DNA from: Magnetococcales bacterium
GTDB taxonomy: Bacteria > Pseudomonadota > Magnetococcia > Magnetococcales > DC0425bin3
Direction of reading: 5' to 3'
Assembly (NCBI GenBank): GCA_015229045.1
Contig: JADGCJ010000058.1
Coordinates: 1 to 8,141 of the forward strand
Length of the DNA stretch: 8,141 bases
Below, in pieces: positions 1 to 8,141 of this stretch; position 1 is the stretch's first letter; every line of letters starts with the position of its first letter. Both the position numbers and the translations under genes were made by a program. The notes beneath the pieces were generated by a model. It saw only the letters and a list, made by a program, of their open reading frames with translations, was not told the origin of the DNA and searched no databases.

Positions 1-18
1 CCTGACAAAGGCTTTCAT
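1..18 (-). CDS. Possible 5' end of a gene running off the left edge
   Basis: Only the first six codons (MKAFVR) could lie in the window, on the minus strand with the ATG at 18-16. An AG-rich stretch (AAGAAAGG) lies about 7 nt before the ATG and would serve as a ribosome binding site. A competing start in another frame is the ATG at 58-56 (MVTAQAPP...), which has only an A-rich upstream sequence. The product cannot be identified. If real, the gene would follow the 59-residue gene at 65-244 in the same direction with a gap of under 50 nt, so the two could be cotranscribed. Confidence 0.25.
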
Positions 19-64
19 GTCCAGGCCTTTCTTGAGGGGGTGCCTGGGCAGTTACCATTTTTCT

Positions 65-244
65 TCAACGAGCGCAGGGATGGAGGCGACCGTTGAGGGG
101 TTTGTTGCGATGAGATCGAGCCAGGCGATCCAGATTTTGCACCCAGAGTTGCAGGTCATGGCGCGTCAACATGACCATCGTTTGACGGCTTTCCGTCAAG
201 ATTTCAGCAGTTGTGGTATCGCCGACTTTTTGGGGAGTGTTCAT
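65..244 (-). CDS. Small uncharacterised protein, 59 residues
   Basis: This short open frame begins MNTPQKVGD and ends ...HPCAR on the minus strand. It is preceded by a GAAGGA ribosome binding site 6 nt before the ATG. The first 40 or so codons are moderately biased to G/C in the third position, which supports coding; the last 15 look less convincing. No signal peptide, membrane segment or known motif is visible; the middle (about residues 14-43) could form an amphipathic helix. I do not recognise a family. Another frame stays open beyond the stop to a TAA at 54-52 (..LDLIATNPSTVASIP..), so a frameshift from a slightly longer protein is possible. An inverted repeat sits just upstream of its ribosome binding site. 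Confidence 0.45.
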   Translation of the reverse strand: MNTPQKVGDTTTAEILTESRQTMVMLTRHDLQLWVQNLDRLARSHRNKPLNGRLHPCAR

Positions 245-261
245 GGAGGTTCCTTCACGAG

Positions 262-293
262 CCGACCTGTCCTTTCCGTGACGAACAGGTCGG
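262..293. repeat. 9-bp inverted repeat in the leader of the 59-residue gene
   Basis: CCGACCTGT (262-270) and ACAGGTCGG (285-293) are perfect reverse complements separated by 14 nt. Read on the minus strand, the hairpin lies immediately before the ribosome binding site of the gene at 65-244. It has no following T-run, so it is more likely an operator or a leader RNA structure than a terminator. The base pairing is seen directly; the role is inferred. Confidence 0.5.
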
Positions 294-320
294 AGGATGA
301 ATGAGCGACGCCATCCTGGC

Positions 321-353
321 CAAAAGCAGGCCCTGCCGATCCAGGCAAGGGCC
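321..353 (-). terminator. Probable intrinsic terminator after the 73-residue gene
   Basis: On the minus strand a GC-rich hairpin starts 14 nt after the stop of the gene at 368-589. GGCCC (349-353 complement) pairs with GGGCC (329-333 complement), then a one-base bulge, then a 4-bp stem (334-337 with 344-347) and a 6-nt loop. It is followed by TGCTTTTGG, giving a run of only four T. Position and shape fit a modest Rho-independent terminator. Confidence 0.5.
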
Positions 354-367
354 GGTACGTGGACGGA

Positions 368-589
368 TTATTGCAAAACCAGATCCGAGGGGGCGCACCA
401 ACGCTTTTCCAGACAGGGGAGGCAATCGTTCTCGTCCGGGGAGTGGGAGCGCGGAGCGCCCATGCCGGGCCGGGGAATGGCAACGCCGATCGGCTCACCC
501 TCCAGGAAGTATTCGATCACCGGGAGATCCGGGTTGATTTGAAAGGGCAGGCCAAACTTTCCCAACGTGGAAATCATGTATTCCGTCAT
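368..589 (-). CDS. Small uncharacterised Cys-containing protein, 73 residues
   Basis: The frame opens MTEYMISTLG and closes ...SDLVLQ followed by TAA. A GGAG ribosome binding site lies 8 nt before the ATG, and most codons end in G or C, so this is very probably a real gene. No signal peptide or membrane segment is visible. The N-terminal half is hydrophobic and mixed (LPFQINPDLPVIEYFLEGEPIG), the middle is Pro/Gly-rich (residues 39-51), and the C-terminal part holds three cysteines in a C-x2-C-x5-C pattern (C56, C59, C65) that might bind metal or form disulfides. I do not recognise a family. A terminator-like hairpin follows the stop, suggesting a single-gene transcript, and the start codon lies within a long-range inverted repeat that could control translation. 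Confidence 0.65.
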   Translation of the reverse strand: MTEYMISTLGKFGLPFQINPDLPVIEYFLEGEPIGVAIPRPGMGAPRSHSPDENDCLPCLEKRWCAPSDLVLQ

Positions 590-688
590 GGTTGCATCTC
601 CGTGTTATCGGTGGGGAGACCCTGTAACCGGGTATCCGCACCAAGCGTGGGCAATCATCCTTGCCCGTTGCGACTGACGGAATACATG
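575..688 (-). promoter_or_regulatory. Long-range 14-bp inverted repeat spanning the start codon
   Basis: CATGTATTCCGTCA at 575-588 is the exact reverse complement of TGACGGAATACATG at 675-688. In a minus-strand transcript the upstream arm could pair with the first codons of the 73-residue gene, including most of its AUG (587-589). The 86-nt interval includes a smaller hairpin (GGGCAA 649-654 with TTGCCC 661-666) and the ribosome binding site. This could form a leader structure that hides the start codon, or be a remnant of an inverted duplication. The pairing is seen directly; the regulatory role is inferred, and no promoter could be placed with confidence. Confidence 0.45.
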
Positions 689-727
689 CAAATCTTTTGC
701 CAGATTCCAGGCCGAGTTTATTTCGGG

Positions 728-874
728 ATGTGTGGTTTTTTAACTATTGAAAGACTGGGATGGAGGTCCAGGACTCTGTCCTGGACCTGTCCGGTCGCCG
801 GCCCCCTGGACCCCGATTCGTTGCCGGGTGCTGAATAGTTACAATATCTTTTTGATCACGAAGAAACCACACGT
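728..874. repeat. Repeat-like intergenic element with imperfect inverted ends
   Basis: The ends ATGTGTGGTTT (728-738) and AAACCACACGT (864-874) are inverted repeats with one G-T mismatch in eleven positions. Inside lies a perfect 11-bp hairpin (764-774 with 778-788, loop TCT) built from GGTCCAGGA/TCCTGGACC. A second CCTGGACC follows at 805-812 in a very GC-rich stretch. There is no coding frame with convincing codon use. The layout, a short palindromic non-coding element in an intergenic gap, resembles REP or MITE-like dispersed repeats, but copies elsewhere cannot be seen here. Confidence 0.45.
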
Positions 875-959
875 TTCAAAGCGGACGCGGTTTGACAGTT
901 GCGAAGACACGGGACGGCCTGACCGGGGTCTGGGGAGAGGTCGAAGGACCACAGAGACC

Positions 960-994
960 CACTCCCGCGCTGACACCGAGTCAGCGCGGGAGTG
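960..994. repeat. Perfect 15-bp hairpin downstream of ihfB
   Basis: Positions 960-974 pair perfectly with 980-994 around a 5-nt loop (ACCGA). The stem contains CTCCCGCGCTGA and its complement. It lies 73 nt beyond the ihfB stop in the direction of ihfB transcription. Neither side has a T-run, so it is not a classical intrinsic terminator. It may be a REP-type element or a transcript 3'-end stabiliser. The flanks 875-959 and 995-1067 hold nothing else that I can identify. Confidence 0.6.
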
Positions 995-1067
995 ACATCG
1001 GGATGGAACCGACAGGGTCAATCCATGTGGGCCGGACGTCGATTTGTCCGTGTACCCGGTTGAAGGT

Positions 1068-1349
1068 TCAGGCATCCACCCGGCGCCGCATCTCCTTGCC
1101 GGCCTTGAAAAACGGTGTCCGTTTTTCGGGGATGGAGACCAGATCGCCCGTTTTCGGGTTGCGTCCCTCGCGTGCGGGCCGCAGGCGGACACTGAAGGCA
1201 CCGAAACCGCGCAATTCAACGCGATCCCCACGCTCCAATGCCTGGGTAATGTTGCCGAAGACGGCAGACACGACGGTTTCAGCCTCCTGACGGGTCAAAT
1301 TGTGTTGTTCTGCGACTGACTGGATGAGTTGGGATTTGGTCAACTTCAT
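1068..1349 (-). CDS. ihfB: Integration host factor beta subunit (HU/IHF family)
   Basis: This 93-residue protein has the standard HU/IHF length and layout: two N-terminal helices (about 4-38), then the beta saddle and DNA-binding arms. The family signature is clear, with ELRGFGAFSVR at 45-55 and GRNPKTG at 62-68, where Pro65 would be the residue that intercalates into DNA. EKRTPFFKAGKEMR at 75-88 closes the domain. RGDRVELRGFGAFSVR matches IHF-beta better than HU or IHF-alpha, so I call the beta subunit. IHF binds and sharply bends specific DNA sites as an alpha/beta heterodimer, serving recombination, replication and transcription control. An AAGGGGG ribosome binding site precedes the ATG. 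The alpha subunit is not in the window, and the usual neighbour rpsA is not seen upstream. The downstream neighbour is non-coding DNA. Confidence 0.88.
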   Translation of the reverse strand: MKLTKSQLIQSVAEQHNLTRQEAETVVSAVFGNITQALERGDRVELRGFGAFSVRLRPAREGRNPKTGDLVSIPEKRTPFFKAGKEMRRRVDA

Positions 1350-1589
1350 TCCCCCTTCAGACTTGCTGGCTTGACGGAAAGGGTTTCTGGCATCTCTGCC
1401 CCACTTTAAACCGGGACGATTTTGGGCAAATTGTGCCCGGAAGCAAGGGATTTTCGCACTGATCGATGCGGATTGTCGATATAAATGATTTTTGTGGGGA
1501 GGCGGATCTGTTATCCGGGGGCGGCCTCTGCTATGATCGACCGGGATGCGGTTGCGTCAGGTATGACTCATGCGACGGGGTAGACAAGG
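1350..1589. promoter_or_regulatory. Divergent intergenic region between ihfB and the vWA/ABC operon
   Basis: These 240 nt must carry the control signals for ihfB (leftward) and for the operon starting at 1590 (rightward), if each has its own promoter. The only noticeable candidate is an AT-rich TATAAAT at 1480-1486 that could be a -10 box for rightward transcription, but no matching -35 box is seen at the usual spacing. A short GGGCA...TGCCC palindrome lies near 1424-1438. No open frame here has a plausible ribosome binding site. Confidence 0.35.
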
Positions 1590-2543
1590 GTGCTGAAAAA
1601 GCCAACTCGGGGAAACGGACGTCGAGTCAGCCAGAAGCCGCTGCCGCCCATGGAGAGGGGGCATCCGGATGGTGCGGTTCGTTCCGGACGTCGCAGGCGT
1701 CGCCTGTTGGTGTTGCTGTTTTTGACGCTGTTCCTGGGCATGGGTATGGCCAGATATCTTGGCAACGGGCGTGATCCGGGTCCTCCATCTGCCGGTCAGA
1801 CGCCCCCTGGTGCGCAGGCATGCCAGTTGCATGACAAAGAGGGGAGCTCCGCCCCGGAGATGATCGAGATACCTGACGGAGAATACAATCTGGCCAGATC
1901 GTCGCTTGCGCCGCACGTTCAGGCCTCCCTGGTTGCGGCTGACTTGTCGCGAATTCTGGTCAAAAAGCCCTATCTCATTCAGGTTCATGCGGTGAGCCAG
2001 GAGGAGTTCGCCCGCTACGAGGCGCATGTGCAGGCCCTGGCGGAAGGAGAGGAAAAAAACCGTTTGTTGGTCCAAATCGGCATGCACTGGAAAAAAGTAT
2101 CGACCGAAGTTGCCGAGAAACCCAAATTGATCAGCGCACTCTTTGGCGGCAAGACCAGGACACCGCTGCAAAGCATCTCCTGGGAAGCGGCACAGGGGTA
2201 CGCCGAGTGGATGGGTGGCCGCTCCGGGTGTCCGTACCATCTGCCCAGTCGTGAGGAGTGGGCAGCGGCGCTCATGTACCTGCACGGTGAGTTGCAGCCA
2301 AAGCGTCAGGATGTCGCCGGGGCCGGGCGGTACGACCTTCTCCTGGGAGTGCGGGAGTGGACTCGCTCCCCTTGTGCCGGAGGGTATTTCCTGGCCGGCG
2401 GAGACGCGGCTCGGACCGGAGAAGGGATGATTGCAGGTCAATGCATGCCGGCCATGGTCTCCATAGCCGGTTTTCGTATGGTCCTGAAGAGAAACGGCGT
2501 ACCTGATCGACAATCCGGTCCTTCTCCCAGGCCCGCATCATAG
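1590..2543 (+). CDS. Membrane-anchored formylglycine-generating-enzyme-like (SUMF1/TagR-like) protein
   Basis: The 317-residue protein begins with a basic cytoplasmic tail (residues 1-38, ending in five Arg) and one membrane helix (about 39-56), which puts the rest in the periplasm. The exported part has landmarks of the FGE-sulfatase fold: MIEIPDGEY at 91-99, SISWEAAQGYAEW at 195-207, YHLPSREEW at 216-224, VREWTR at 254-259 and GFRMVL at 294-299. The paired catalytic cysteines of true formylglycine-generating enzymes are not evident near the C-terminus (only one Cys, in GQCMP), so a binding rather than enzymatic role is likely. The start is a GTG, with GGGG about 10 nt upstream; an ATG at codon 21 has a poorer site. 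It leads an operon with vWA and ABC genes. In type VI secretion regulation the SUMF1-like TagR works beside an ABC pair and PpkA, and this may be its counterpart. Confidence 0.72.
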   Translation: MLKKPTRGNGRRVSQKPLPPMERGHPDGAVRSGRRRRRLLVLLFLTLFLGMGMARYLGNGRDPGPPSAGQTPPGAQACQLHDKEGSSAPEMIEIPDGEYNLARSSLAPHVQASLVAADLSRILVKKPYLIQVHAVSQEEFARYEAHVQALAEGEEKNRLLVQIGMHWKKVSTEVAEKPKLISALFGGKTRTPLQSISWEAAQGYAEWMGGRSGCPYHLPSREEWAAALMYLHGELQPKRQDVAGAGRYDLLLGVREWTRSPCAGGYFLAGGDAARTGEGMIAGQCMPAMVSIAGFRMVLKRNGVPDRQSGPSPRPAS

Positions 2544-2570
2544 GGGTAGGAAAGAGCCGAGAGGGGTAAG

Positions 2571-5342
2571 ATGATGCATGACAGCAACTTGACGTGGACT
2601 TCGCCAGCGGTCAGGAGTGAAAACGTCAGCATGAAAGGCGGAACGATCGTGGATATGAGATCCGAGCTTGCAAGAGAGGGGAAGCGTCGCACGCTGGGAT
2701 GGTGGGGGGCCGTCTGCGCGAGCATGGTTGGTTTGTGGGTGGTTCCACATGTGGCCTATGCCGGTACCCAGTCCAAGGGAGGAGGCGGAAGTTGCGCCAG
2801 CGTTGATTTTTCTCCCTATTACCAGGACAAGGCCCTCAAGTGGACCGGCCCGGTGGCACGGGTGATACGGGGGGTGGTGCCCGTCACGGACAAACCTCAG
2901 GCCGGTGCCAAGGTCGGCGATTTGCTCTTCAACCAGACCGCCGAGATCCTGGAAGAGTCGGGCGACCGGATCAAGGTGCGTTCGGCCCGCTTTCAGGAGC
3001 GTCCCTCCCTGACCGGGTGGGTGGCGAAACGGGATCTTTTGTGTCGCGATCTGCCCCTCAAAGGGGAGTCGGGGTTGGAGACCAAGTTTTTCATTCGCAC
3101 CTCCACCATGGCCCGGGAAGAGGGCAAGGGCGAACCCACCGTGCGGGTGTTTCAGGATCCGGATCTGGCCGAGTGCGCTGGCGGTCATGGCCATTGCCGG
3201 GAGGGGGCGTCACGATTTCACATGTATTTTGTCATGGATCAGAGAGAGAAAGCTCTGCTGCTGGCGGATCGCTTCCGCCTCAAGGAGGACGACCTTCTGG
3301 TCGGCTGGGTGAGCGAAAGTGATGGCTTCCCATGGGATAATGCCTTCGGCCTGCGCCCGCGGGAAGATATCAAGACCCCGGATGGACAGGGTCCGGGTAC
3401 CGTCTGTACCTACGAACGTCTGGAGGATGCCGTCGCCCGCTCGGCCTCGACCTGCAACCCGGTCGAAGGGGGCAACAAGTGGTTCAAGTCGGCGATGCGC
3501 ATCCCCGTGCTGGATATGGTGGATGCCCGCGGTCGCCATGTGGAACCGGAAGATTTGTCGACACCGGCTGGCGAGGAGATGCGTCGTTTTTACAAGGTTG
3601 CCCTGGCGCGGCCAGGTTTGGTGGGGCGTCCGGTGGGCAACGGCAAATTTGCCATCTCGCCGGGTCTGGCACAACGCATCATGCCGGAGTTCAAGTCCCT
3701 CGCCTCGAAGAAGAACGTCGACATCTTTTTTGTCCTGGATGCGACCGCCAGCATGGACGCCATGATCGATGCCGTGCGCGGTACCCGGCAAAAGCCCGGG
3801 GTGGTGCAGGAGATTATCCAGGGCCTGAAGAACACGGCCGGTTTCAAGGAGACGCAGTTCCGTTTTGGTTTTCGCGTCTACCGGGATACCTACGCTGACA
3901 AGCTCGTTGCCAACTCCCTGGGCGATGGTGTCGGCGAAGGGTATCCTCTGCCCGCGACCTGCCAATTGACACCGGAACAACAGTCCCAGAGCTACGACGA
4001 GTTTCAAAAGGCCATCGCCCAGGTCAGGGCCACCACCGATGACCAGGACGACTATGAAGAGAATCTCTATGGTGGCTTGCATCAGGCCTTGAGCAAGGAT
4101 ATGACGTCGTGCCCTGATCACCTGAAACTGGTGTTCGTCATCGGCGACAGCGGTTTTCGCAGCGGTCTGCCGTATGTCGATGGCAAGGGCAGACGCTTTG
4201 AGCGGGCCAAATATCGGCATCCGATCGATCGGGAGACGCTGATCAACTTCCTGCGGGGCAGTGACAAGCCCGGTGACAAGGCCAATAGCGTGATGCTTTT
4301 TGCCATCGAGACGCCTGCGTTGTCAGAAAAAGCCAAACATCCGGAGCTTTACAATATCTCCTATGCCAAATTTGAGGCCCAGTTGCGCTATATCTTGCAG
4401 CAGAGCCTGCCACGGGACAGCTCCGACAGCGAACACTTCTTCCGCATGGGTGAAGAGACTTTGCTGCCCAGGCTGGTCGGTACGGTGGAAAAGCTTGGTG
4501 GCAGCACCCTGATCAACGAAATCATCCTGGATGTCAACGGCGGCGCGGCCCTTGGTGCGGTCATCGAACGGTTGCGCAAGGAGCGGGTCGACATACCCGG
4601 GGTCTATTGGCACATCCTGAAGCAGGGGGCTTGCGGCGATCTGGGCGAGCAGTGCGAACGCCGGGTGTTTGACAATACGTCGGTAGGGTTTGTGGAGGCC
4701 ACCGACAAGGTGGTGGAGGACTTATGGGTCGACAGCCATGCCCTCTCCTCCTGGATCCGCGTTCTGAAAGGGTTCGAGGGGTACCACGAGATGCCGGAAC
4801 CCCAGTTGCGGCGGGCACTGATCAGCGCTCTGGTCCTCGGGCTGAAAGAGGTGATCCGGGGGCAAAGCATGGACAGCACGGAGACACCCGCCGAATATGC
4901 CCAACGTCGTGGCGGTCTGCCTGTACGGCGCCACAGTCCCCTGTTGAGCTACCATGTACCGGGATTGTCGGCCGAGAAGACGTTGCGGGACAAGGACAAG
5001 CATCTCATCGTCGCCGACGCGACCGGCAAGCCCGTCCTCGACCGGGCGAAACGTCCCATCCAGGCCGTGGCTTACTGCGAGCTGAAGCGCCTGGCCGTGT
5101 GGGCCATCCATTCGAAGCAGATGTTGGAGATCATCGAACGGGACCATCAACGGCCTGACTATCGTCTCCTGCCGGCCAGCAAGGTGTTGCAATGCCCCGA
5201 TTCCACGGCCAATGGCTCGGCCCTGCAACAGATCATGGGCAATATAACGGCAGTCCCTCTGGGGCCGGACAAGAACTACCGCTTCAGCCATGATTTTGGT
5301 GGTCGGCGCGGCTACTGGATTCCGCAGGACTATTTGCCATGA
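2571..5342 (+). CDS. Exported von Willebrand factor A protein with SH3-like repeats (PpkA periplasmic-region-like)
   Basis: This is a 923-residue protein. A hydrophobic segment at 41-62 preceded by KRR and followed by AYA-G (62-65) looks like a signal peptide or anchor. An SH3-like domain lies at about 95-158 (ends GWVAKRDLLC), and a second similar unit at about 170-255 ends in GWVSESDGFPW. The vWA domain starts near 380: VDIFFVLDATASM carries the metal-site triad D390, T392, S394, followed by FRFGFRVYRDT (432-440) and LVFVIGDSG with D526. Many cysteines suit the oxidising periplasm. The C-terminal 200 residues match nothing I recognise and end IPQDYLP. Translation start is uncertain: GAGAGGGG sits well before the ATG at 2571, whereas the ATG at 2655 gives a more normal signal peptide. 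There is no kinase domain. It overlaps the next gene by ATGA. It probably senses or scaffolds in the envelope. Confidence 0.8.
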   Translation: MMHDSNLTWTSPAVRSENVSMKGGTIVDMRSELAREGKRRTLGWWGAVCASMVGLWVVPHVAYAGTQSKGGGGSCASVDFSPYYQDKALKWTGPVARVIRGVVPVTDKPQAGAKVGDLLFNQTAEILEESGDRIKVRSARFQERPSLTGWVAKRDLLCRDLPLKGESGLETKFFIRTSTMAREEGKGEPTVRVFQDPDLAECAGGHGHCREGASRFHMYFVMDQREKALLLADRFRLKEDDLLVGWVSESDGFPWDNAFGLRPREDIKTPDGQGPGTVCTYERLEDAVARSASTCNPVEGGNKWFKSAMRIPVLDMVDARGRHVEPEDLSTPAGEEMRRFYKVALARPGLVGRPVGNGKFAISPGLAQRIMPEFKSLASKKNVDIFFVLDATASMDAMIDAVRGTRQKPGVVQEIIQGLKNTAGFKETQFRFGFRVYRDTYADKLVANSLGDGVGEGYPLPATCQLTPEQQSQSYDEFQKAIAQVRATTDDQDDYEENLYGGLHQALSKDMTSCPDHLKLVFVIGDSGFRSGLPYVDGKGRRFERAKYRHPIDRETLINFLRGSDKPGDKANSVMLFAIETPALSEKAKHPELYNISYAKFEAQLRYILQQSLPRDSSDSEHFFRMGEETLLPRLVGTVEKLGGSTLINEIILDVNGGAALGAVIERLRKERVDIPGVYWHILKQGACGDLGEQCERRVFDNTSVGFVEATDKVVEDLWVDSHALSSWIRVLKGFEGYHEMPEPQLRRALISALVLGLKEVIRGQSMDSTETPAEYAQRRGGLPVRRHSPLLSYHVPGLSAEKTLRDKDKHLIVADATGKPVLDRAKRPIQAVAYCELKRLAVWAIHSKQMLEIIERDHQRPDYRLLPASKVLQCPDSTANGSALQQIMGNITAVPLGPDKNYRFSHDFGGRRGYWIPQDYLP

Positions 5343-6139
5343 CCTGGGGGGTGGAGATCTCCGAGGCCGAAGTGGGTTGGGGCGATACGTTTCGTCTGAC
5401 CGTGGACGACATTCACGTAGAGGCCGAGACCATCTCCCGACGCTTGCCGGTGTTGGGTCGCAGCGGTAGCGGCAAGAGTACCTTGTTGTATCTTCTTACC
5501 TTTCTGAAACGTCCACGCCAGGGAACGGTGCGTTGGGTCTTTCCCAATGGTGCCCAGGCCCAATGGGGACCGAAGGGTCTGGAACGGCGACGCTCCGATC
5601 TGGATCTGACCCAGCTGCGGCGCCGTTATTTTGGTTTTGCCTATCAGCGCAGCACCCTGACACCTTATCTGAACGTGGGGGAGAATCTGCGTTATCCTCT
5701 GCAATTGCACGGCGGTCTGCCCCACCACGAAATCGAGGAGCAGGTCCACATGGCTGTGCAACAGGTCTTGATTTGCGGTCAGGGAGAGGACATGTATCAC
5801 AGTGACAGTCAGGATGTGGTGGGTGCCTTTTTGAGGCGGTATCCCAACCAGCTGTCGGGTGGGCAGCTGCAACGTGTCGCCCTGGCCCAGGCGATGATTC
5901 ACAACCCCAATGTCCTGTTTGCCGATGAGCCGACCGGCAATCTCGACGCTGCCACCCGGAAAGAGGTCATGGCGGTGGTCGATCGCTGGCTGGACCAGGG
6001 AGATCGTCTGTTGATCTGGGTGACGCATCACGTCTCCGATGCTGTGGATCCCCGGGTGACGCATCGCATCCTGGTGTCGCATGGCCATTGTCAGCTTCAG
6101 GGGCGTACCCGTCCCCCGGTCGCGGAAGCTGCTGCATGA
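5339..6139 (+). CDS. ABC transporter ATP-binding protein, LolD/MacB type (TagT-like)
   Basis: All ATPase motifs are intact in this 266-residue protein: Walker A GRSGSGKST at 40-48, Q-loop Q103 in FAYQRSTLTPYLNVGENL, signature LSGGQLQRVALAQAM at 172-186, Walker B VLFADEP at 192-198, D-loop NLD at 201-203 and H-loop histidine in WVTHH at 230-231. The order and the phrase DEPTGNLD place it with LolD/MacB/FtsE-type ATPases that partner FtsX-like permeases. It is somewhat longer than LolD (about 230), mainly from extra sequence between Walker A and the Q-loop (about 65-95) and before the signature. Its ATG overlaps the stop of the vWA gene, and its own stop overlaps the permease start, so the three are probably translated together. 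It should sit on the cytoplasmic face and power the permease encoded next. Confidence 0.9.
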   Translation: MTWGVEISEAEVGWGDTFRLTVDDIHVEAETISRRLPVLGRSGSGKSTLLYLLTFLKRPRQGTVRWVFPNGAQAQWGPKGLERRRSDLDLTQLRRRYFGFAYQRSTLTPYLNVGENLRYPLQLHGGLPHHEIEEQVHMAVQQVLICGQGEDMYHSDSQDVVGAFLRRYPNQLSGGQLQRVALAQAMIHNPNVLFADEPTGNLDAATRKEVMAVVDRWLDQGDRLLIWVTHHVSDAVDPRVTHRILVSHGHCQLQGRTRPPVAEAAA

Positions 6140-8082
6140 ACAGCCACTCCTCTTCCTTTTCCGCCCAGGCACCGCGTCGACGGCGTTCCGGCATCATGCC
6201 GGTCTGGATCTCTTTGGGCATGCGGGCGTTTCGTCGTTCGTTCTGGTGTGGCTGTTTTGGTTGTGATTCGGGCGGGCGGGACTTTGTCTGGTTGACCTTG
6301 TTGTTGACCCTGGTGATGACCATGACCCTGGTCTTTGTGGGTACCCGGGTGGGTTTCCTCGATCGTCTGGCGGACACCCTGATCGGCAATATCGAACCCA
6401 ATGGTGTGCCGGTCTGGGTGACCTCGCATTGGGAAAACCAGCAGGGTATCGACTCCGCCCTGCTGCAAAAGTTGACCGATATGAAACTGCCTGTCGCCCA
6501 GGGCAGGTCGCCCCAGGAGGGGGCTCACGTTGCCGAAGAGAAGAGTTCTCTCACCGTGTTTCCCTATCGGCGGCTGGGTGACAATCAGCCGGCGATCCAT
6601 CTGCCCACGCCCCAGTCCTGGAAAGGGACCACGCCCTTTGCCGGTTGGGCCGTCTATCCGAACGATCCCCTCTGGAAACTGGCGACTGCCGATGCCACCC
6701 GGTTGGGCATCTCCTACGAGGATGAGCGCTCTCCCTGGCTGGGGTTGCCGCTGGAGGTGGTCCTGAGCACCGCCCGGTTCCGTCGACATTTTGACTATGC
6801 TGCTTATCGGGAGGCGGTGGCACCCTTTCTGGCCGAGCAGAAGCGTCCCGCCCTGCCTGCCACCTTGGATTGGAACGACCCCATCCGTGCGTTGGAGACC
6901 CTCTGGCTGCGGGTGACCGTCTCTCAGGAGGAGCGGCTGATTCCTTTCAAAGTGCGCTGGGTGAGTCACATTCCCTCCATGGAATCGATCGCTTTTCTGT
7001 TTCCCCTGAACACCTATCATGCCTTGTTGGCTGCGCACCATCTGCCGGATTTGCGTTACCAACCGGAAAACGAGGGGCGGGGTGACTCCATCCAGAATCA
7101 TCGTCTGTTGACGCAGCCTGACTATCCTCGGGAACTCCTCAGCCAATACGCTGCCTGTGTCCAAAAGGAGCAGGAGAGTGCGGGGGGTGATGAGCGGCCC
7201 CAGGTGTCGCGGCAAAAGTGTTCCCCGCCATCGGCGGTGGCCAGATTGAACAGTGGCAAAAAGGCTGACGTCCCTGCCCAGACCTGGAAAAATCAATGGG
7301 ATACGCTCAATCATGATCGCAACCATCAGGTGTGGATCCCCTGTCAGAGGCTCTCCCGGGGGGATGCCCTGCGTGGCGCTCTCTGCGCAGGGCAGAGTGC
7401 TGAAGCAGGCGGAAATATGTTTGTTCCCTGGGATTTGACCCATGCCGGTCTTGCGTTTTCCACCGTGCATCTGTTCGTTCCCAATGCCACGCATCTGGCA
7501 CAGGTGATCGAACAGATTCAGGAGATTCGTACCTCGGACGGACGGCAGGCATTCAACATTCATCCCACCTACCTGGACGCCATGAGCCGTTTCAACCTGT
7601 TGAGCGACATGCTGGGGTCGTTGATTCCTGCCTTTGCCGGGTCGTTTTTATTGTTGTTGACGGCGTTGTTGTTTGCCCAGATTGGCGGGGTGATTGACCG
7701 TCGACGCAACCACTTTGGCATCCTCATGAGTCGGGGTTTTTCCTGGGTGACCATCTATGCCAAGGTGATTCTGCAAATGTTTCTGGCGACGACGTGCAGC
7801 AGTGTCGTGGCGGTGTTTGGGCTGGTGCCGGCCTTGCGCTGGTTCGTGATGCGCGATTTCAACACTGTGCTGAGCCGTTATCGGGAGCTGTTGCCCCCGG
7901 ACCATGGCCTTGACATCATGCCTCTCTCCTGGCAACCCATTGTCTTGACGGTGGGGGGAGTGGCGTTGGCCGTTATCCTGGTGGTGGCGATCCTGCTGTT
8001 GCGTATTCCCCTTTGGTGGCACACCACTCCGTCCGATCTGTTGCACGGCAACTATGCCAATCCCGACCGGAACCAGGCTTGA
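6136..8082 (+). CDS. FtsX/MacB-like ABC permease with large periplasmic domain (TagS-like)
   Basis: I chose the ATG at 6136 because it overlaps the ATPase stop (ATGA) and has GGAAG about 7 nt upstream; an upstream TTG in the same frame lacks support. The 648-residue protein has a basic N-terminal tail, one membrane helix (about 50-68), a roughly 425-residue extracytoplasmic region, then three helices (about 496-516, 543-565, 602-622). This 1+3 topology is that of MacB/LolC/FtsX permeases, which pass conformational change across the membrane or move lipoproteins rather than carry small solutes. The loop after helix 2 (DRRRNHFGILMSRGFS, 521-536) corresponds to the cytoplasmic coupling region that contacts the ATPase. 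Unusual are three closely spaced cysteines before helix 1 (C38, C40, C43). It ends the four-gene cluster, and the final residues are charged and cytoplasmic. Confidence 0.85.
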   Translation: MNSHSSSFSAQAPRRRRSGIMPVWISLGMRAFRRSFWCGCFGCDSGGRDFVWLTLLLTLVMTMTLVFVGTRVGFLDRLADTLIGNIEPNGVPVWVTSHWENQQGIDSALLQKLTDMKLPVAQGRSPQEGAHVAEEKSSLTVFPYRRLGDNQPAIHLPTPQSWKGTTPFAGWAVYPNDPLWKLATADATRLGISYEDERSPWLGLPLEVVLSTARFRRHFDYAAYREAVAPFLAEQKRPALPATLDWNDPIRALETLWLRVTVSQEERLIPFKVRWVSHIPSMESIAFLFPLNTYHALLAAHHLPDLRYQPENEGRGDSIQNHRLLTQPDYPRELLSQYAACVQKEQESAGGDERPQVSRQKCSPPSAVARLNSGKKADVPAQTWKNQWDTLNHDRNHQVWIPCQRLSRGDALRGALCAGQSAEAGGNMFVPWDLTHAGLAFSTVHLFVPNATHLAQVIEQIQEIRTSDGRQAFNIHPTYLDAMSRFNLLSDMLGSLIPAFAGSFLLLLTALLFAQIGGVIDRRRNHFGILMSRGFSWVTIYAKVILQMFLATTCSSVVAVFGLVPALRWFVMRDFNTVLSRYRELLPPDHGLDIMPLSWQPIVLTVGGVALAVILVVAILLLRIPLWWHTTPSDLLHGNYANPDRNQA

Positions 8083-8115
8083 ATCGCGTGCAGGGCAATC
8101 GCATTTGAAATTGGC

Positions 8116-8141
8116 ATGCTTGAAAAATCGGACCTTGAACC
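8116..8141 (+). CDS. Possible start of a further downstream gene, cut by the window edge
   Basis: An ATG at 8116, 33 nt after the permease stop, opens a frame reading MLEKSDLE to the edge of the window. The upstream sequence has no convincing ribosome binding site. The spacing would fit a fifth operon member, but eight codons are too few to judge. No terminator is visible after the permease gene. Confidence 0.2.

Follow-up and report, generated by a model that had tools for sequence, protein, structure and literature searches.

The four-gene cassette and its distribution in Magnetococcia

The window analysed here is a stretch of 8,141 nucleotides from a Magnetococcales bacterium of the class Magnetococcia (assembly GCA_015229045.1, contig JADGCJ010000058.1, positions 1 to 8,141). 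Its plus strand carries four genes, with two ATGA overlaps, which encode a SUMF1-like protein, a protein with a vWA domain, an ATP-binding cassette (ABC) ATPase, and an FtsX-like permease. An initial annotation, made from the DNA alone, had described this group, and our gene calls confirm the observation: the genes are real. We refer to the four genes, and to their counterparts in other genomes, as the cassette. The genes and their main features are as follows.

1590..2543, plus strand: SUMF1/FGE-like protein, 317 amino acids
2571..5342, plus strand: vWA protein, 923 amino acids counted from the first ATG, the true start being unsure
2856..3350, plus strand: SH3-like, beta-rich N-terminal region of the vWA protein, residues about 96-260
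3708..4514, plus strand: vWA (integrin I-type) domain, residues about 380-648
3738..3752, plus strand: MIDAS-type motif D390-x-T392-x-S394 (DxTxS), invariant in 57 of 57 aligned sequences
5339..6139, plus strand: ABC ATPase, 266 amino acids
6136..8082, plus strand: FtsX/LolCDE/MacB-type permease, 648 amino acids
6385..7563, plus strand: large permease region between helix 1 and helix 2, residues about 84-476, placed by the structure model and structure alignments

An in-frame TTG at 6088 is an alternative start for the permease and would lengthen it to 664 amino acids.

Searching 48 Magnetococcia genomes with a vWA protein profile gave matches in 43, of which 40 are full-length, two are partial, and one is split into two contig-edge fragments. 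The SUMF1-like, ATPase and permease genes each lie beside the vWA gene in 25 of the 26 class genomes whose loci were examined, and the partner-gene exceptions (G007 and G034) are at contig ends. The outer flanks vary: they include ihfB, ATP synthase-like genes, leu-like genes, response regulators and an RND pump, as called with our own open reading frame (ORF) script and named partly by eye. Because the partners are constant and the outer flanks are not, the cassette is a unit on its own, and the suggestion that it is a stand-alone module holds among its relatives. The vWA relatives that carry names are from Magnetococcales (one is labelled Nitrospirae in one source), the closest being 83% identical over 94% of the query. 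Magnetococcus marinus MC-1 has the cassette as well (L038), with the vWA gene Mmc1_3115, the permease gene Mmc1_3113, the ATPase gene between them and the SUMF1-like gene upstream.

Two class genomes have an extra vWA match. In G003 this is a 70-residue fragment. In G040, a Magnetococcus genome without the type VI secretion system (T6SS) sheath protein VipB, it belongs to a second, Tag-like and kinase-less operon that is present besides the cassette (L037; contig 35, 28000-43000). The order there is vWA (754 amino acids), ABC, permease (607 amino acids), TagR-like and lipoprotein-like, and this is the only such match in the 48 genomes.

The vWA protein is remotely related to PpkA and Srf vWA proteins

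The vWA protein begins with a signal-like stretch, recognised by eye, that ends in VAYA at residue 64, and for this reason we take the protein to be periplasmic. The SH3-like region was assigned from a weak SH3_3 match (E 0.17) together with strands in the structure model; PF08239 is annotated on two members of the vWA family (P0030 and P0045). Within the vWA domain, D526 is, like the MIDAS-type motif, invariant in the 57-sequence alignment, and the motif would be expected to bind metal. The C-terminal part is conserved too, and ends in YW[VI]PQ.[YF]LP in 13 of 13 sequences (alignment A1). Comparison with solved structures by sequence returned nothing useful, and matches in a viral structure library were chiefly to generic vWA and SH3 folds.

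Profile comparisons support the suggested likeness between this protein and the periplasmic region of PpkA. With HHalign, the cassette vWA profile gave 98.7% against Srf plus PpkA proteins (E 1.5e-16, 194 columns; 99.5% in global mode), 95.6% against PpkA alone and 97.3% against L037 alone, versus 0.7% and 1.2% against same-class controls consisting of 22 BatA-like and 6 YfbK-like proteins (28 of 30 control loci gave sequence, and three of the BatA-like frames are overlong at 658-779 amino acids). Three random subsets of six gave 98.2-98.9%, and the use of full-length PpkA gave 92.1%. A plain hmmsearch with the vWA profile recovered no PpkA at E 0.01. The T6SS reference loci (L040-L045) were located through VipB and FGE searches and named by gene order and domains; the labels BatA-like, YfbK-like, HSI-I-like, TagF, PppA and IcmF are provisional. 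By these comparisons, the kinship of the cassette vWA protein to PpkA and Srf proteins is remote but specific, and is centred on the vWA domain.

The ATPase and permease are of the type VII ABC kind

The ATPase contains Walker A, the LSGGQ signature, Walker B and the H-loop, all seen by eye. A phylogenetic tree of 49 rows, in which long branches (L011 and L037 included) were flagged, resolved three groups. The first holds E. coli LolD, FtsE, MacB and YbbA (support 100/98), and the second the Srf, TagT and L037 ATPases (99/94). The third consists of 27 cassette and Tad-linked ATPases, apart from all others (100/99). The cassette ATPase had been likened to TagT; the tree does not support it as a member of the TagT family, but places it in a separate clade beside TagT.

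The permease model (predicted local distance difference test score 86.8) has one N-terminal and three C-terminal long helices, and by analogy the region between helix 1 and helix 2 would be periplasmic. A LolCDE chain was the best Foldseek match (E 8e-7), and in structural alignment the best Z scores were 16.0 for LolCDE, 15.0 for MacB and 14.9 for FtsX, with BceB and YbbP matching too. Going by the model, the ATPase and permease together are a type VII ABC system, that is, one with a four-helix FtsX-type permease and a domain after helix 1. In this they resemble LolCDE, MacB, FtsEX and YbbAP, from which the cassette differs in its distinct ATPase clade, an insert larger than that of LolC or FtsX, and its dedicated vWA and SUMF1-like partners.

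At the sequence level, HHalign gave 4.8% for the cassette permease against TagS only, and 33% and 39% against TagS plus the Srf and L037 permeases, with only the FtsX end aligned. E. coli LolC and LolE scored 0.3-3.8%, which indicates no kinship in sequence; since the E. coli permeases were single sequences and TagS a profile, 39% versus 4% is not a fair contest. The suggested likeness of the permease to TagS finds no clear support in these values, and the two differ in length (648 versus about 400 amino acids).

The SUMF1-like protein is not TagR

The SUMF1-like protein matches PF03781 (FGE-sulfatase) with 47.1 bits against a cut-off of 23.3, over profile positions 2-122 of 255 only. A hydrophobic stretch near its N-terminus (residues about 39-54; window positions 1704-1751) looks by eye like a membrane anchor. 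Cysteines 78, 214, 262 and 285 are kept in 23 of 23 aligned sequences, the window included, and possibly form two disulfides. Matches to solved structures by sequence were marginal FGE hits (best E 0.006). The protein had also been likened to TagR, which we could not uphold: HHalign of its profile against TagR gave 1.0% and 7%, and its hidden Markov model found none of six TagR proteins at E 0.01, although it did match four FGE proteins encoded in T6SS regions elsewhere (L046 and L047).

The cassette is a candidate sister branch of the TagQRST-PpkA and Srf systems

We then compared the cassette as a whole with the TagQRST-PpkA operon. The two have in common a PpkA-type vWA domain, the gene order vWA-ABC-permease, and an FGE-fold protein in the operon. 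They differ in that PpkA carries its kinase on the vWA chain, whereas the cassette vWA protein has no kinase domain (no Pkinase match in Pfam or NCBIfam), and in the length of the permease. Furthermore, the FGE gene follows the permease gene in Tag and Srf operons, whereas in the cassette the SUMF1-like gene precedes the vWA gene. No recurrent lipoprotein neighbour was seen at the cassette, and the class is without a T6SS sheath match: VipB (PF05943) was found in none of the 48 class genomes, as against 87 of 398 genomes overall, and a further search gave 0 of 11, other T6SS genes not having been searched. No T6SS genes were seen next to the cassette either.

The Srf operon (SrfB PF07520, SrfC PF10139; vWA-ABC-TagS-TagR) is like the cassette in its kinase-less vWA protein and its vWA-ABC-permease order, but has an ATPase of another clade and another FGE protein, and the permeases are not clearly related. 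SrfB was found in none of the 48 class genomes, although the controls for this search were silent and SrfC was not searched in the class; hmmscan does detect SrfB in L034.

We reject membership of TagQRST because of the kinase, TagR, the ATPase clade and the absence of the T6SS sheath. Because the ATPase clade is separate, TagS and TagR have no clear match, and there is no T6SS sheath, we regard the cassette as a sister branch rather than a TagQRST system. The earlier idea that it uses the same periplasmic parts as TagRST and PpkA thus has support in the vWA kinship and the gene order, but none for TagR, no clear support for TagS, and none for TagT as a family member. Best matches lie outside the TagRST/PpkA families for the SUMF1-like protein and the permease, partly so for the ATPase, and not for the vWA protein.

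Relatives outside the class

Among 398 Pseudomonadota genomes, a set that includes the 48 of the class and for which scoring was mostly limited to two candidates per genome, 48 matched: 43 from the class, three with weak Srf-type vWA matches, and two with full-length relatives, namely Pinisolibacter aquiterrae (G011, L011) and G061. The vWA proteins of these two are about 31-33% identical, and their ATPases fall in the cassette ABC group. Both loci keep the vWA-ABC-permease order and have a T2SSE-family ATPase directly behind it (L011 15276-16610; L032 5683-6705), with Tad-family genes near (TadE in L011, RcpC in G061). They differ from the cassette in these Tad-family genes and in an upstream gene, X, that has no FGE or other Pfam match; similarity between the two X proteins is weak (pairwise E 8e-8 across about 160 residues). 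Six more vWA relatives are 30-35% identical (P0067-P0072), and a permease relative (P0128) is on a contig equal in size to that of one of them.

A widened profile (A4) gave 12 matches in 385 genomes of the class of G061, with at most two candidates per genome scored: G061 itself and eleven others, all weak (E 2e-8 to 2e-4). Each of these eleven is a vWA protein whose gene adjoins ABC and TagS-like genes. SrfC and SrfB lie beside ten of them, and the eleventh (L060) has a weak SrfA-like match only.

A proposed envelope machine

On balance we lean, with modest confidence, towards the view that the cassette encodes a nearly class-wide, ATP-driven type VII ABC envelope machine of Magnetococcia with vWA and SUMF1-like partners. 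The ATPase and permease would form a complex of the MacB/LolCDE/FtsEX type, in which the ATP cycle moves the large periplasmic domain. The secreted SH3-like and vWA protein would bind a partner through a metal-dependent vWA surface, and the membrane-tethered, probably non-catalytic SUMF1-fold protein would hold or present a ligand. Together, the four proteins may do mechanical work on an envelope component or report its state. On this view the vWA-ABC-permease core, known from TagQRST-PpkA and Srf operons, has a sister branch in the cassette, which would operate with no T6SS, Srf or Tad system and no kinase next to it. The analysis shows the genes, their order and conservation, the folds, the vWA kinship, and the lack of a sheath match in the 48 genomes and of a kinase motif in 13 loci; that the proteins are secreted, form a complex and act mechanically, and that the SUMF1-like protein is a binder, is what we infer.

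Several points weigh against this view. The permease has weak sequence kinship to any named family (HHalign at most 39%). The predicted template modelling score of the vWA model is just 0.61, so the packing of its domains is unsure, and the SUMF1-like protein could be enzymatic, given its four conserved cysteines. Five of the 48 class genomes have no vWA match; their assemblies, for which completeness was not given, are of 2.0-4.5 Mb, two being 3.8 and 4.5 Mb. The PpkA/Srf profile also matches the BatA-like controls (86.7%) and the YfbK-like controls (46%); its separation from other vWA proteins is thus less sharp than that of the cassette family, and the groups are not closed towards other vWA proteins. 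Finally, PpkA of Serratia acts in the absence of TagQRST and carries another periplasmic domain (PMC6082577), so even T6SS does not always need the core.

More speculatively, it is possible that the vWA-ABC-permease core is an independent and ancient device for envelope surveillance or force coupling that has been plugged into T6SS (via PpkA), Srf and Tad, and that the Magnetococcia form serves the cell's own envelope with no secretion system.

Alternative explanations

Alternatively, the cassette might sense damage or contact much as TagQRST does and switch on a Ser/Thr kinase whose gene lies elsewhere in the genome. The PpkA-like vWA domain would suit such a role, and the TagQRST-PpkA pathway of P. 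aeruginosa senses outer-membrane damage (PMC11881912). Pkinase-domain proteins are present in all 48 class genomes, so that a distant partner kinase is possible; among the matches listed, frame sizes of about 650-700 and about 1000 amino acids recur. However, no kinase is in view, as the initial annotation had remarked: a Ser/Thr-kinase motif, sought as a pattern on ORFs of at least 100 amino acids, was found in none of 13 loci (the window and 12 relatives) and in five of five positive controls. MC-1 has seven Pkinase matches, and of the two whose surroundings were examined neither adjoins the cassette. With the kinase missing from the vWA chain, where PpkA has it, and a SUMF1-like protein that is not TagR-like, we consider this sensor doubtful.

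A class-specific ABC system for handling lipoproteins or lipids (Lol/Ybb-like), with the vWA and SUMF1-like proteins as carriers or hand-over factors, would fit the LolCDE chains that are the best structural matches of the permease. That fold is common to type VII systems, however, and the HHalign values for E. coli LolC and LolE were negligible. Nor did a lipoprotein gene recur: a crude lipobox pattern gave candidate ORFs in 8 of the 13 loci and none in 5. We find such a system unlikely.

A Tad/Flp pilus accessory, to which the T2SSE ATPase and the TadE or RcpC gene at L011 and G061 point, is highly improbable in Magnetococcia, where RcpC exceeded the cut-off in none of the 48 genomes (one sub-threshold match, Caulobacter control positive, other Tad families not searched). 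The prospects are equally slim for a pump of the MacAB kind that exports a secondary metabolite or peptide: the permease matches MacB structures, but the cassette has no MacA/HlyD-type gene, the ATPase clade is separate from MacB, and a Pfam scan of nine flanking ORFs, drawn from six loci, showed an HlyD-RND pair at L010 only.

Relation to earlier work

The co-occurrence of srfABC and tag genes, mostly without T6SS, has been reported before (PMC3608642). Srf-tag neighbourhoods are thus already known, and what is new is the Magnetococcia branch, of which no description was found among the literature matches listed. In PMC8926400, checked for a link to vWA proteins, the passages found concern Arc proteins. 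In P. aeruginosa, the sensing of damage by TagQRST and its relay are unsettled, and a signal of unknown nature has been proposed (PMC11881912). If most of a class retains a form that has neither kinase nor T6SS, the sensor core could be examined there in isolation, uncoupled from its output. The cassette also seems to be an envelope system of magnetotactic cocci that has so far gone unstudied.

Remainder of the window

The permease gene ends 59 bases before the end of the window. PADLOC defence models gave only cross-matches to the ATPase (e.g. mad3) and nothing for the other three proteins. Rfam and tRNA scans of the window found none, and promoter and terminator scans gave no excess over shuffles. 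The ihfB gene lies at 1068-1349, in the orientation opposite to that of the four genes. Upstream of it, our ORF script called no gene in the roughly 1 kb at positions 1-1060. This region contains short inverted repeats at 960-994 and 764-788, and positions 150-199 match L009 at 90%.

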